Shown here: one piece after another, positions 13,230-44,253 of the stretch
Layout: each line of letters starts with the position of its first letter
Numbering within the stretch: position 1 is the first letter of the stretch
NCBI RefSeq assembly: GCF_014323565.1
Contig: NZ_CP058669.1
Location: 2,321,501 to 2,385,500, forward strand
From: Hyphobacterium sp. CCMP332
GTDB taxonomy: Bacteria; Pseudomonadota; Alphaproteobacteria; Caulobacterales; Maricaulaceae
Length of the DNA: 64,000 nt
Direction: 5' to 3'
The notes under the pieces: model-generated
The model's database searches: none
What the model was told of the DNA's origin: nothing
Seen by the model: the letters and a program-made list of their open reading frames with translations, nothing else
Program-made: the position numbers and the translations under genes

Positions 13230-13275
13230 TGGTGCCGCATGGGTGACTCGAACACCCGACCTACGCATTACGAAT
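13230..13275 (-). tRNA. 3' part of split tRNA-Thr(CGU), left island junction (attL)
   Basis: On the minus strand this is the 3' portion of a tRNA-Thr, from the anticodon loop through the T arm to an encoded CCA end. It is identical over 46 bp to the same part of the intact tRNA at 44044-44119. Identity stops right after the core ATTACGAAT (13267-13275), where island sequence begins. The other part of the original gene is at 44215-44253. The core contains the anticodon, so the element integrated in the anticodon loop. Confidence 0.93.
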
Positions 13276-13394
13276 TATGGATTAGTTGCCCTGAACGAGT
13301 TCGAAAGAACGCGAATAACAACGAAACCCCCAATGCACTCAGTGAGTTGCACTATGAACGGCTGCGAAGTCGTTAGAAGCCTTTTTAATCCCGC

Positions 13395-13416
13395 GCCCTA
13401 CTAATGCGCTACTAAT
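13395..13416 (+). repeat. Tandem 11-bp repeats, candidate integrase arm sites (left)
   Basis: Two adjacent 11-bp units, GCCCTACTAAT and GCGCTACTAAT, lie about 120 bp inside the left island end. They match the unit GCGCTACTTTT found in tandem near the right end (44135-44156) and once at 43899. Short direct repeats flanking the core are typical arm-type binding sites of tyrosine integrases. Binding is inferred. Confidence 0.6.
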
Positions 13417-13454
13417 CGTCCGGTGGCCCCATGGCGGGGTTATGGGCGACCCTG

Positions 13455-13833
13455 CCAAAAACCGGTGCCGGAAATTTCCCTAAAATTGAGCTCTGAACCC
13501 TAGCGTCCCACTCTCCACTCATGATCGCCATTGGCGATGAGCAGCGTAGCGGCTTCATTTTCGTTTGCGGACAGATCGATCCCGCGCTCGTGGAGCAGGC
13601 CCTCGACGTTTCTCAGAGACAGCGGAAAGCGGACATACATCATCACCGCCAGGCGAATGACCTCAGGCGACGTTTTGAAATAGCGAAATGGGTTTCTCAT
13701 CCGGCGAAAATATCGCCTGACCGGCTAACAGGGCGTTTCTTCTGACGCTGCCAAACCGGCTCTTGGTCATCCGACGCAATTATCGGCTAACCGGCTAACC
13801 GGCTAACACCGAGTTTCCTCTGACAGAGCCCCT
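13455..13833 (-). mobile_element. IS6-family remnants (two nested right ends)
   Basis: The minus strand encodes about 45 codons matching the N-terminus of the island's IS6 transposases (NPFRYFKTSPEVIRLAVMMY through LLHERGIDLS, bases 13566-13700). This then runs into foreign sequence and a stop at 13500. An IS6-type end with TTTCTTCTGACGCTGCC follows at ~13734-13752. A second end, with CTAACACCGAGTTTCCTCTG, follows at 13766-13833. The left ~110 bp are not IS6 but are shared with the remnant at 32918-33215, so the two are copies of one chimeric fragment. No functional transposase remains. Confidence 0.8.
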
Positions 13834-15231
13834 GTAGAATACCAACAATCTGAAAACCGACCACATCACACCGGTTGCTGAGCCAGCGATCAAAGTAATG
13901 ACCAAATCTGGCGCATACAGGTTGAGAGTTGCAAGCGAAACGCCAAAGAGCTGCGGTATGAGGAAGATGAAGCACCACGCCATTGCAAGTGTCGCAAGCA
14001 GGGGAAACCAAAGGCTGAACATCCCGGTCAATCCTGATTTCGCACGCAAACCCCGCCGCAAAATCCAAGCCCCGATCATGCCGCCCAGAAATATAAACGG
14101 CAGAATCACGAGCAACGCAAAAAGGGCCTTTTGTTGCAGGCGATTGCCGCCGCTTTCATAGAGCTGACCGAGACCAAGCGTAGCGATGCCTGTCAGCAGT
14201 TCCTGGTTTTCACCAAACCCAATCCCGCTTCCCGCATTGATTAAAACAACAACGCCCCTTTGTTCGGACAATGAAAGAGCGGCGATTGTCTCAACGCCCG
14301 GGCTGACACCGGTGTGGAAGGCGGCGTAGCCCTCTACATCGATGGACCAACCAAACCCGTAGAAAGGCGAAATTGGGCTGGCCGGTTGAAGCATCATGGC
14401 CTTGTTATCGGCGCTGATGATGTCGTCTTCGCCATTCATCATGAGCGCGAGATATCGGGCGACATCATTGGCGCTTGCGATAATGCCACCGGCGGGTGCG
14501 CCGCCCCGAGCGAAGCTGCGCCCCTCCAGGGAGCGCTTTGTGCCGAACCAGGGAAGGTGGCCGATTGCCATAAAGTCGTATGTGCCACCATCAGAGACAA
14601 AGCTGTCATCCATGCCGGCCGGTTCAAGAATTTCTGTTTCGATATAATTTGTAAAACCCCGGCCGCTGATCTCTTCGATAAGGGCACCCAGAATCAAATA
14701 GTTCGCGTTCGAGTATTGCCATTGGCTATCGGCGGCGTGCGCCGGGACCGTGTGAGCCAGTTCGCGAACATTGTCGGAAAGTCCACGATTCTCATCGTTT
14801 TGTTGCGCTTGGAATAAATTGCCTTGCAGGGTCGAGTATCCGCTTGTGTGGCTGAGCAGCTGGCGGATCGTGACCGTTCCGCCAGCCTGCCCCTGGAAGA
14901 CGTCAAGATATTCAGAGATGGCAGTATCGAGCTCGATACTGCCCGCTTCCATGAGTTGGACCACAGCCAGCGCCGTGAAGCTTTTAGAAATCGAGCCGAG
15001 CTGGAAAGGGGTTTCGGGCGTCACGAGTTGACCGCTCCCGGACAAAACCTCACCGCGCGCTCCGGCGCAAACCACGCCATTGTCGATCACAGCATAGGCG
15101 AGCCCGGGCGCTCCCGAGACGGGCATGGCTTGATCAATAAAATCGTCAATTATTTCGGAGCAATGCCCTTCCTGCGCATAGGCGCTGGCAGACATGCATA
15201 GCAAAATCAACAAAACTGGAAGACGCCACAT
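13795..15231 (-). CDS. Exported beta-lactamase-fold serine hydrolase with C-terminal membrane helices
   Basis: This 478-residue protein has a signal peptide ending SAYAQ (about residue 20) and a class C beta-lactamase/esterase (Pfam Beta-lactamase, COG1680) domain. The nucleophile motif is S80-I-S-K83 and the Tyr motif is Y173-S-N175. After residue ~370 come several hydrophobic helices (ALFALLVILPFIFLGGMIGAW onward), so the catalytic domain is probably periplasmic and membrane-anchored. Such proteins act as esterases, peptidases or D-amino acid amidases; true beta-lactamase activity cannot be assumed. The last ~15 codons are read out of an IS6 end, so the original C-terminus has been cut off. 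It is followed on the same strand by no other gene. Confidence 0.85.
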   Translation of the reverse strand: MWRLPVLLILLCMSASAYAQEGHCSEIIDDFIDQAMPVSGAPGLAYAVIDNGVVCAGARGEVLSGSGQLVTPETPFQLGSISKSFTALAVVQLMEAGSIELDTAISEYLDVFQGQAGGTVTIRQLLSHTSGYSTLQGNLFQAQQNDENRGLSDNVRELAHTVPAHAADSQWQYSNANYLILGALIEEISGRGFTNYIETEILEPAGMDDSFVSDGGTYDFMAIGHLPWFGTKRSLEGRSFARGGAPAGGIIASANDVARYLALMMNGEDDIISADNKAMMLQPASPISPFYGFGWSIDVEGYAAFHTGVSPGVETIAALSLSEQRGVVVLINAGSGIGFGENQELLTGIATLGLGQLYESGGNRLQQKALFALLVILPFIFLGGMIGAWILRRGLRAKSGLTGMFSLWFPLLATLAMAWCFIFLIPQLFGVSLATLNLYAPDLVITLIAGSATGVMWSVFRLLVFYRGSVRGNSVLAG

Positions 15232-15410
15232 CTGAATGTCTTTCTTAGTAGACGAAGGCCTGACAAGGTCCGGTCCTGCGCTCTAAGCCATGTTCCATGG
15301 ACAACACCGTCACGTGAGGCTAGAGAGTCGAGAATTCGGTCGCAATCGATTTTCCTCTGACATCACCAACGCTGCGATTTGGGGGCTCCCAGTTTCGCAT
15401 CAGCCTTTCT

Positions 15411-43898: not shown

Positions 43899-43909
43899 GC
43901 GCTACTTTT
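43899..43909 (+). repeat. Single arm-type repeat
   Basis: This is one GCGCTACTTTT unit, the same 11 bp that occurs in tandem at 44135-44156. It lies 8 bp after the stop of the exported protein gene and 316 bp from the right core. It is a further candidate integrase arm site. Confidence 0.45.
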
Positions 43910-44043
43910 GAATTCCCCGGATGTCGTTTGTCTATGCGGCTGGACGGCCGATTTGTGCTTCATGCGCCCTACTAGACCGTACACGCACAATCTTCGGAGG
44001 GGTATGATCGCGCTGTTTTTTATGTTGAAAATCAGTGATTTGA

Positions 44044-44119
44044 TGGTGCCGCATGGGTGACTCGAACACCCGACCTACGCATTACGAATGCGTTGCTCTA
44101 CCAGCTGAGCTAATGCGGC
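44044..44119 (-). tRNA. tRNA-Thr(CGU), complete copy
   Basis: This 76-nt cloverleaf on the minus strand has acceptor stem GCCGCAT/ATGCGGC, a D arm (AGCTCAGCTGGTAGAGC), anticodon stem ACGCA/TGCGT with loop TTCGTAA (anticodon CGT), T arm GGGTGTTCGAGTCACCC and encoded ACCA. It lies inside the island's right end and would supply the threonine tRNA for ACG codons after the native gene was split. Its two parts are identical to the split halves outside the island over their whole length. Confidence 0.95.
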
Positions 44120-44134
44120 CTAAACCAATCATGC

Positions 44135-44156
44135 GCGCTACTTTTGCGCTACTTTT
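44135..44156 (+). repeat. Tandem 11-bp repeats, candidate integrase arm sites (right)
   Basis: Two perfect adjacent copies of GCGCTACTTTT lie 59 bp inside the right core. They mirror the tandem GCSCTACTAAT units near the left end. They are likely bound by the N-terminal domain of the integrase. Confidence 0.65.
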
Positions 44157-44214
44157 CTTACCTCTGGCAACCTAACTCACTGCTTTGCTTCGTGTTCCGC
44201 AATTAGGGCACCTA

Positions 44215-44253
44215 ATTACGAATGCGTTGCTCTACCAGCTGAGCTAATGCGGC
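44215..44253 (-). tRNA. 5' part of split tRNA-Thr(CGU), right island junction (attR)
   Basis: On the minus strand this is the 5' half of tRNA-Thr (acceptor, D arm, anticodon stem and loop), identical to the matching part of 44044-44119. Identity begins at the core ATTACGAAT (44215-44223). The sequence on the island side (AGGGCACCTAATT) is unrelated to tRNA and forms an inverted match with 13281-13292 at the other end. Together with 13230-13275 it would rebuild one complete tRNA gene. Confidence 0.93.

Follow-up and report, generated by a model that had tools for sequence, protein, structure and literature searches.

Here, we analysed a 64,000-nucleotide stretch of the genome of Hyphobacterium sp. 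CCMP332 (positions 2321501-2385500, forward strand, of the single-contig 2.69-Mb genome NZ_CP058669.1; hereafter the window), in which an integrated element of about 30.9 kb splits a gene for tRNA-Thr(CGU) and carries a complete gene for the same tRNA close to one of its ends. The two halves and the complete gene had been located in an earlier note drawn up from the sequence of the window, and they were confirmed by ARAGORN, which was used for tRNA calls throughout, and by two perfect repeats. The only tRNA that ARAGORN called in the window is Thr(CGT), on the minus strand at 44044-44119. The first repeat (D10; 48 bp, 100%) equates 13228-13275 with 44042-44089 and the second (D11; 40 bp, 100%) equates 44081-44120 with 44215-44254. 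The features at the two element-host junctions, attL and attR, are the following, each with its basis in brackets:

13230-13275, minus strand: displaced 3' half of the host tRNA-Thr(CGU) gene on the attR side, including the core at 13267-13275 (repeat D10, genome search)
44215-44253, minus strand: displaced 5' half of the host tRNA-Thr(CGU) gene on the attL side, including the core at 44215-44223, on the side of the host promoter (repeat D11, relatives)
44044-44119, minus strand: complete, element-borne replacement tRNA-Thr(CGU), the sole complete copy found in the genome (ARAGORN, genome search)
13275-44215, no strand assigned: entire integrated element, about 30.9 kb (repeats, G+C content, core positions)

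Read along the minus strand, the order is thus host upstream flank, 5' half (44253-44215), spacer (44215-44120), complete tRNA (44119-44044), island, 3' half (13275-13230) and downstream flank. Joined to each other, the outer halves of the window give a 76-nt tRNA with 21/21 stem pairs intact. The common core ATTACGAAT lies at 13267, 44081 and 44215 and occurs eight times genome-wide; ARAGORN called no tRNA in the 3-kb stretches surrounding the other five copies. The G+C content in 2-kb windows is 0.58-0.65 in the flanks and 0.52-0.60 inside the island. A gap of about 95 bp of non-tRNA sequence between outer 5' half and complete gene, as described in the earlier note, is indeed present, but it measures 96 nt (44120-44215) and turned out to be a conserved spacer with a doubled repeat instead of filler.

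Searching the whole genome with the complete tRNA gave 11 matches at E<=1, namely one full-length match at 100%, two partial matches at 100% (the halves) and eight diverged ones, five of which were typed as Thr(GGU), Thr(UGU), Met, Trp and Lys, with Thr(GGU) and Thr(UGU) being the longest two. The earlier note had argued that, if there were only one Thr(CGU) gene, the island would be hard to lose without precise excision. As far as similarity search shows, one complete gene is present. The argument is weaker than it was put, since Thr(UGU) is present and precise excision would rejoin the host tRNA. A Thr(UGU) tRNA might read ACG through wobble. In the 15 open reading frames (ORFs) of the window taken as host genes, ACG accounts for 96 of 300 threonine codons.

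The unbroken form of the site is preserved in a genome of the same genus (G005, locus L049), in which a left flank matching the window up to 11163 is followed by a complete tRNA-Thr(CGU) within 219 bp and directly thereafter by the right flank (44215-44315 and 44373 onward). The earlier note had predicted one uninterrupted gene in a relative lacking the island, and this is what G005 has. G006 likewise has the complete tRNA and the right flank, and its contig stops 683 bp past the tRNA, which makes only one side judgeable. In G007, a 3' half lies near a contig end with differing sequence behind it and the complete tRNA sits on another contig; the 3' half probably belongs to a conventional element, i.e. 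one that carries a fragment restoring the gene. A conventional island at the same tRNA is also probable in G037 (15.3 kb, complete gene plus one 3' half, integrase-like ORF 23% identical). Among the matches listed in 60 genomes (its own included), a copy listed as 5' half only was found in the genome of the window alone.

The same layout recurs in related elements. A search of the family (137 genomes, its own included) returned one further close integrase with identical layout (G152; 55%, E 1.6e-140). A collection of 84,980 genomes, scanned pattern-wise with a two-integrase alignment, yielded 19 loci, eight with integrase identities of 54-56% and 11 with 38% or less. The eight belong to Xaviernesmea oryzae, a Robiginitomaculum metagenome-assembled genome (MAG), Devosia geojensis, Shinella yambaruensis, Pelagibacterium limicola, a Rhodobiaceae MAG, Aquimixticola soesokkakensis and Mesorhizobium sp. 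Root554, hence to alphaproteobacteria of at least three orders (Maricaulales, Rhodobacterales and Hyphomicrobiales were checked in the taxonomy). Their number is a lower bound because the scan depends on exact peptide patterns. Nine elements were compared, the one in the window and its eight relatives; the Robiginitomaculum MAG was taken as the same contig as G152 and counted once. In all eight relatives, a complete tRNA-Thr(CGU) follows beyond the integrase, the outer 5' half lies about 135 bp farther out and a 3' half is found 10-19 kb off; that of Aquimixticola is 83% identical to the element tRNA. Each element is thus accompanied by one complete gene and two complementary fragments, and the carried tRNA is in 9/9 cases the isoacceptor destroyed by the insertion; none of the nine has a tRNA of another isotype or one placed elsewhere. 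With the Shinella tRNA as query, one full-length Thr(CGU)-like copy was found per related genome, a count that a strongly diverged copy might escape. The proposal of the earlier note that the island brings an entire replacement tRNA for ACG codons is supported by the whole-tRNA layout of these relatives.

The layout was not seen at the 11 loci with integrase identities of 38% or less, several of which are short, some with 5-13 kb. A search with a single integrase protein gave no relative among 135 pattern-matching stretches of genome contigs, an integrase search of viral contigs gave none among 41 stretches, and in 385 genomes of the class only the integrase of the window itself was found at E<=1e-75. 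The attL scar pattern had 0 matches in 385 genomes of the class (reversed control: 1 chance match), a sample that included none of the eight related genomes and hence offered no positive control. Spacer DNA in the 137 family genomes matched that of the window only; the known G152 spacer was missed as well, so the reach of this search is short.

In Mesorhizobium, two outer 5' halves lie in series upstream of the element tRNA (locus L118, about 18500-18860). The inner one has a different anticodon stem, and the one 3' half found fits the outermost. The simplest path to this arrangement, judged by sequence, would be that an element integrated into the replacement tRNA of an earlier element, whose older body was then lost; given these serial 5' halves, the replacement tRNA is probably still a target. 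In G152, 38 bp located 2.2 kb past attR (27995-28032 of L064 and L065 concatenated) exactly repeat the end of the tRNA 3' half with its flank, perhaps as the trace of another event. Among the further loci, those of Parasutterella and Turicimonas (L077, L078; 9662-9738, 11318-11394) have two complete tRNA-Pro(CGG) genes at a distance of 1.6 kb, with an integrase-like match between them. The paired genes have mutual identities of only 94% and 87%, and this is possibly another whole-tRNA arrangement.

We next compared each element tRNA with the host gene that the element had split. Rebuilt from the outer halves, the original host genes are 76 nt long with paired stems in 9/9 cases, apart from one G-A pair in Aquimixticola, and the element tRNAs have 21/21 stem pairs in 9/9. 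Host and element genes agree at 76/76 positions in the window, Robiginitomaculum, Rhodobiaceae and Mesorhizobium (outermost 5' half used; 73 with the inner one), and at fewer in Xaviernesmea (74), Shinella (74), Pelagibacterium (72), Devosia (66) and Aquimixticola (63). Gene conversion, by which the element tRNA would be copied from each host, had been prompted by the first two 76/76 values and was rejected on account of the five of nine that differ. Since the element tRNAs keep all their pairs, yet differ from the split host gene in these five, the tRNA gene travels with the element. Shinella and Devosia plainly show such a transfer: their element DNA is 94.6% identical over 7.2 kb and their element tRNAs agree at 75/76 positions, whereas their host tRNAs agree at 65/76. 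The inner and outer 5' halves differ from each other in Devosia, Pelagibacterium and Aquimixticola. Because the inner halves pair together and the outer halves pair together, we are dealing with two separate genes and not with a rebuilt host gene.

At the junctions themselves, the following sites were found:

13268-13274, minus strand: crossover heptamer TTCGTAA with the anticodon CGT inside, attR copy (alignment; Aquimixticola element)
13393-13416, plus strand: two direct repeats resembling arm sites on the P side (GCGCCCTACTAAT and GCGCTACTAAT on the plus strand), putatively bound as such (repeats)
44120-44215, minus strand: 96-nt spacer (P' arm) from the crossover to the element tRNA, with an inverted repeat beside the core and then two arm-site-like repeats in 11-bp phase (alignment)
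44135-44156, plus strand: GCGCTACTTTT twice, arm-site-like pair in the spacer (repeats)

The core comprises 9 bp and the exchange is confined to 7-8 bp. In Aquimixticola, in which the host core reads CTTCGTAAG, attL retains the C of the host and attR starts with the A of the element, which places the exchange within TTCGTAA(G) in the anticodon loop. From there, attL passes from the core into a non-tRNA spacer in 9/9 elements. The spacer measures 96-99 nt after TTCGTAA (window 96, relatives 97-99), and that of the window aligns with those of the eight related elements. Both junctions are half tRNA and half non-tRNA in 9/9, and no tRNA is rebuilt at attL or attR. The sequence ATTCGTAATTAG occurs exactly once in each of 8/9 carrier genomes, always on the attL side, which in Mesorhizobium means the inner scar, and is absent from G003, G005, G006 and G007 as well as from Aquimixticola with its differing core. 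In 18 junction stretches, the hexamer TAGTA(G/T) occurs 35 times on one strand and once on the other, with 1.6 expected from shuffles. The spacers of all eight relatives have a pair of it, 11 bp apart, at the same place; the window spacer scores 0 for it and has repeats reading AGTAGCG in the same 11-bp phase. By analogy to lambda-type systems, these doubled TAGTAG-type repeats would be arm sites of the integrase. Beside the crossover, an inverted repeat of 5-7 bp (window 44201-44217) is present in all five sequence forms examined, with letters differing among elements; its stem was equalled by 5 to 264 of 5000 shuffles, which is suggestive only, and both a core-type site and an RNA hairpin are conceivable. 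Each of two junctions scanned also has one terminator-like site, on the strand opposite to the tRNA and at about shuffle level.

Given these observations, we consider it highly likely, with a probability of roughly 0.87, that the integrative element replaces the tRNA-Thr(CGU) of its host with its own whole gene instead of rebuilding the target. The tyrosine integrase encoded on the island would recombine TTCGTAA in attP, the attachment site of the free element, with the same 7 bp in the anticodon loop of the host gene. attL would thereby consist of the host 5' half and element sequence, and attR of element sequence and the host 3' half. As attP does not match the tRNA beyond the core, neither junction rebuilds a tRNA, and the complete tRNA-Thr(CGU) situated 96-99 nt inside attL would make up for the loss. 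The host tRNA promoter upstream of attL would transcribe the replacement, and the host would need the element tRNA. At the level of sequence, the split, the unbroken gene in a relative, the single complete copy, the layout in nine elements and the independent descent of the element tRNAs are established.

Other histories have to be weighed against whole-gene replacement. The earlier note had put forward two tandem insertions, the second nearly deleted. A conventional element with complete tRNA and 3' half would then have been followed by a second one, since reduced to about 95 bp and a 5' half. Serial events do occur in the family, as Mesorhizobium with its two outer 5' halves suggests, and the genome G003 at first seemed to speak for a conventional element: here, about 418 bp of the right end of the island (window 43703-44120, 89%, covering the end of ORF 43373-43891, a gap and the tRNA) are joined straight to the host upstream flank, a structure that a conventional element could be expected to produce. 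An IS-like fragment (IS, insertion sequence) lies on the far side of this remnant, and no 3' half was found in the 20 kb examined. Yet recombination between the 40-bp D11 repeats, removing 134 bp, would convert the arrangement of the window into exactly the same structure, and the surviving gene may then combine the 5' half of the host gene with the 3' half of the element gene. G003 was thus dropped as proof of a conventional element and, since a decayed conventional element would leave the same structure, counts for neither reading. What decides against tandem insertions is that order, spacer length and phase of the repeat pair are the same in 9/9 elements from nine genomes, to which independent deletions would not lead, and that the nine can hardly be recent copies of one rearrangement given integrase identities of 54-56% and the diverged spacer of the window. 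As the origin of the layout, tandem insertion is therefore rejected by all eight relatives, and we regard it as very improbable.

Slightly less improbable, though still doubtful, is that the mobile unit ends at the inner tRNA, which would make it a conventional element with the outer 5' half and spacer as a dispensable leader or scar. In the window, the cores of the inner tRNA and of attR are indeed perfect 48-bp direct repeats, and plasmid III of Legionella fallonii begins with ATTCGTAAT and a tRNA-like 3' half, as the circular form of a conventional element would. However, the inner and outer halves of Devosia, Pelagibacterium and Aquimixticola represent two separate genes, and the spacer with its repeat pair is kept in 9/9. 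The least credible alternative takes the element tRNA for ordinary cargo that serves codon supply or counters tRNA-cutting defences and lies near attL only incidentally. Many phages carry tRNAs, and several of the related elements carry defence genes, but the carried tRNA is always the destroyed isoacceptor, lies at a constant distance from the crossover (9/9) and is the only full-length copy found per genome.

Several points weigh against whole-gene replacement or narrow it. A simple scan for sigma-70 promoters in two junction regions found 0, with 0.3 and 0.1 expected by chance, and the source of transcription thus enters the proposed mechanism as a prediction. No excised circle was seen in the records searched: no plasmid or phage record spans 80% of the Shinella attL, and viral contigs contain neither the attP nor the attL pattern of the Shinella type in exact form, patterns that would not fit the type of the window. 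The predicted attP was also not found in 122 loci. On the left side of the island, the flank match to the window ends at about 11163 (G005), 11062 (G007) and 11056 (G003), and about 2.1 kb (11164-13229) before the 3' half are unmatched in all three apart from a few bases beside the half in G007. The left edge is thus anchored by the tRNA half and not by flanking synteny. The unmatched stretch holds ORFs 11083-11859 and 11907-13154, the latter 2OG-Fe(II) oxygenase-like, and may represent either an indel of its own or an earlier insertion at this edge. Moreover, the copy in the window alone is silent on independent descent, as its element tRNA is identical to the host halves.

But, why should an element carry an entire gene where a fragment would do? 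A hypothetical tRNA of host 5' half and element 3' half would have mispaired stem positions in three of the nine hosts, namely Devosia (2), Pelagibacterium (1) and Aquimixticola (5, one of them at the pair already mismatched in the host gene). A wider host range thus suggests itself as the benefit: a whole gene needs no pairing with the 5' half of a new host, which would likely permit transfer across differing tRNA-Thr genes. This benefit is not general, as a half-gene element would also pair in 6/9. Beyond the single locus, we lean towards the wider reading that a family of non-viral islands, spread over at least three alphaproteobacterial orders, transplants a whole tRNA-Thr(CGU) under the host promoter, by which it would be freed from half-pairing, make the host dependent, and spread tRNA genes and leave them behind.

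The principle itself is known from phages. tRNA-dependent lysogeny has been demonstrated genetically in mycobacteriophages (Guerrero-Bustamante & Hatfull 2024, PMC10865867), and its authors expect it outside Actinobacteria as well. Like these actinobacteriophages, the elements described here have an arm-binding tyrosine integrase, an attB (host site) inside a tRNA gene, a short core (about 10 bp in the phages), no tRNA rebuilt at the junctions and a cognate tRNA of their own as replacement. Unlike the temperate phages of Actinobacteria treated there, they are alphaproteobacterial islands, and the products scanned include no structural gene of a phage. Furthermore, the tRNA of phage Fionnbharth, according to the same paper (PMC10865867), overlaps a protein gene and has a promoter of its own, whereas here the tRNA is fixed 96-99 nt inside attL with the crossover in the anticodon loop. 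In alphaproteobacteria, the Rhizobium podophages vTRX32-1 and relatives similarly replace an interrupted tRNA-Leu with a complete one of their own (PMC8631192). The podophage tRNA-Leu lacks the 12-bp core, which is suggested there to prevent super-integration, in contrast to the replacement tRNA found here, which retains the core and was apparently hit again in Mesorhizobium. In Sinorhizobium meliloti, a prophage tRNA replaces Leu(UAG), and islands with phage remnants carrying tRNA-Thr(GGU), described in the same source (PMC11476347), are the closest island precedent; the cases in both sources are phages or phage-related sequences and concern other tRNAs.

Conventional islands, as described for Islander (PMC4383910), carry a tRNA fragment that restores the gene and leave one gene plus one fragment. 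The tyrosine integrase and the anticodon-centred crossover, a standard sublocation in Islander, are shared with the elements described here (anticodon-loop sites are reviewed in PMC8371274). What sets the latter apart is a whole gene plus two fragments and an attP without a gene-restoring fragment. Matches to the Shinella integrase numbered 156 among phage records (best 34.7%) and 2175 among plasmid records (best 41.1%). The best plasmid match, the one record among all these that was looked at in detail, is the 14.6-kb circular Legionella fallonii plasmid III (NZ_LN614829.1, L122) with an integrase 41% identical to that of Shinella. It has the att-like core ATTCGTAAT but, unlike the elements described here, only a 3'-half-like stretch beside it and no tRNA called by ARAGORN, and may be an excised integrative element and not a standing plasmid. 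As this related integrase seems conventional at seemingly the same core, whole-gene replacement is suggested to be derived, and the Legionella plasmid perhaps represents the conventional state from which it arose.

Full-text searches, beyond whose reach most subscription journals lie, found among the papers listed no report of a non-phage island family of such layout at tRNA-Thr(CGU), which is a weak negative. New, as far as we have seen, appear to be the island family, the fixed position of the tRNA at attL and the re-targeting. The usual rule and the island-finding software built on it assume repair by a carried fragment (PMC4383910), while the islands described here replace the whole gene; finders built for a single gene with a single fragment would presumably place the ends of such islands wrongly. 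Our results suggest that elements not recognisable as phages, in another bacterial class, share the strategy of replacement that was described for actinobacteriophages in 2024, and that tRNA genes can pass in this way from one bacterial order to another. With conventional relatives, whole-gene elements, serial scars and a possible collapsed remnant, a natural series is at hand for studying the origin of the strategy.

The element of the window encodes its integrase, a small helix-turn-helix (HTH) protein and a primase/helicase together, within the right 6 kb of the island:

38624-39793, plus strand: tyrosine integrase, 389 aa, with Phage_integrase and Arm-DNA-bind_3 domains (Pfam)
40490-40723, plus strand: small HTH protein (HTH_17; PHROG 'excisionase and transcriptional regulator'), candidate excisionase (Pfam, PHROG)
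40723-43032, plus strand: primase/helicase-like replication protein (AEP-TOTE, PriCT_2, DUF5906; Pfam, PHROG)
43373-43891, plus strand: ORF of unknown function beside the element tRNA, of which the 3' part survives in G003 (Pfam, G003 alignment)

Pfam and PHROGs were used for protein families and blastp for homologues. A combination of integrase, HTH regulator, VapE or primase and variable cargo is what we take to be a phage-satellite-like integrative element. No structural phage gene was recognised by Pfam among 25 ORFs of the island (the scan took in five further ORFs outside it) or by PHROGs among eight products of the window and Shinella elements, and on the ORFs scanned the element of the window would not qualify as a temperate phage. 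An assignment of ORF 43373-43891 as HutD was not borne out, as neither a Pfam family nor a PHROG was found for it. The integrase has homologues in all eight relatives. A VapE-like protein was found in Shinella by Pfam and as blastp homologues in Devosia, Xaviernesmea, Aquimixticola and Robiginitomaculum, and Mesorhizobium has a homologue of the primase of the window; in Pelagibacterium and Rhodobiaceae, the corresponding place is occupied by a large ORF. Selected proteins of the related elements include a VapE-like protein, type I restriction-modification subunits, a CAP12/Pycsar-type TIR protein, a GmrSD nuclease and a GajB-like helicase.

Over its left two thirds, the island is broken up by two IS6/IS240-type transposase genes and three related fragments (13496-13753, 18431-18574, 21137-21885, 26037-26842 and 32954-33211), which suggests that the cargo grew by IS-mediated accretion. 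Of the two copies of a 300-bp repeat (20585-20884 and 31858-32157, 99% identical), the first holds a short dienelactone hydrolase-like ORF (20630-21046) and the second the end of a longer one (31903-32991). The regions 13795-16721 and 22032-23897 encode two adjacent members of the serine beta-lactamase family (PF00144), plus another match below the cut-off, which does not imply a role in resistance. Finally, a 672-aa pentapeptide-repeat protein is encoded at 35863-37881; two 300-bp stretches of its gene are 96% identical, with starts 354 bp apart (36073 and 36427).

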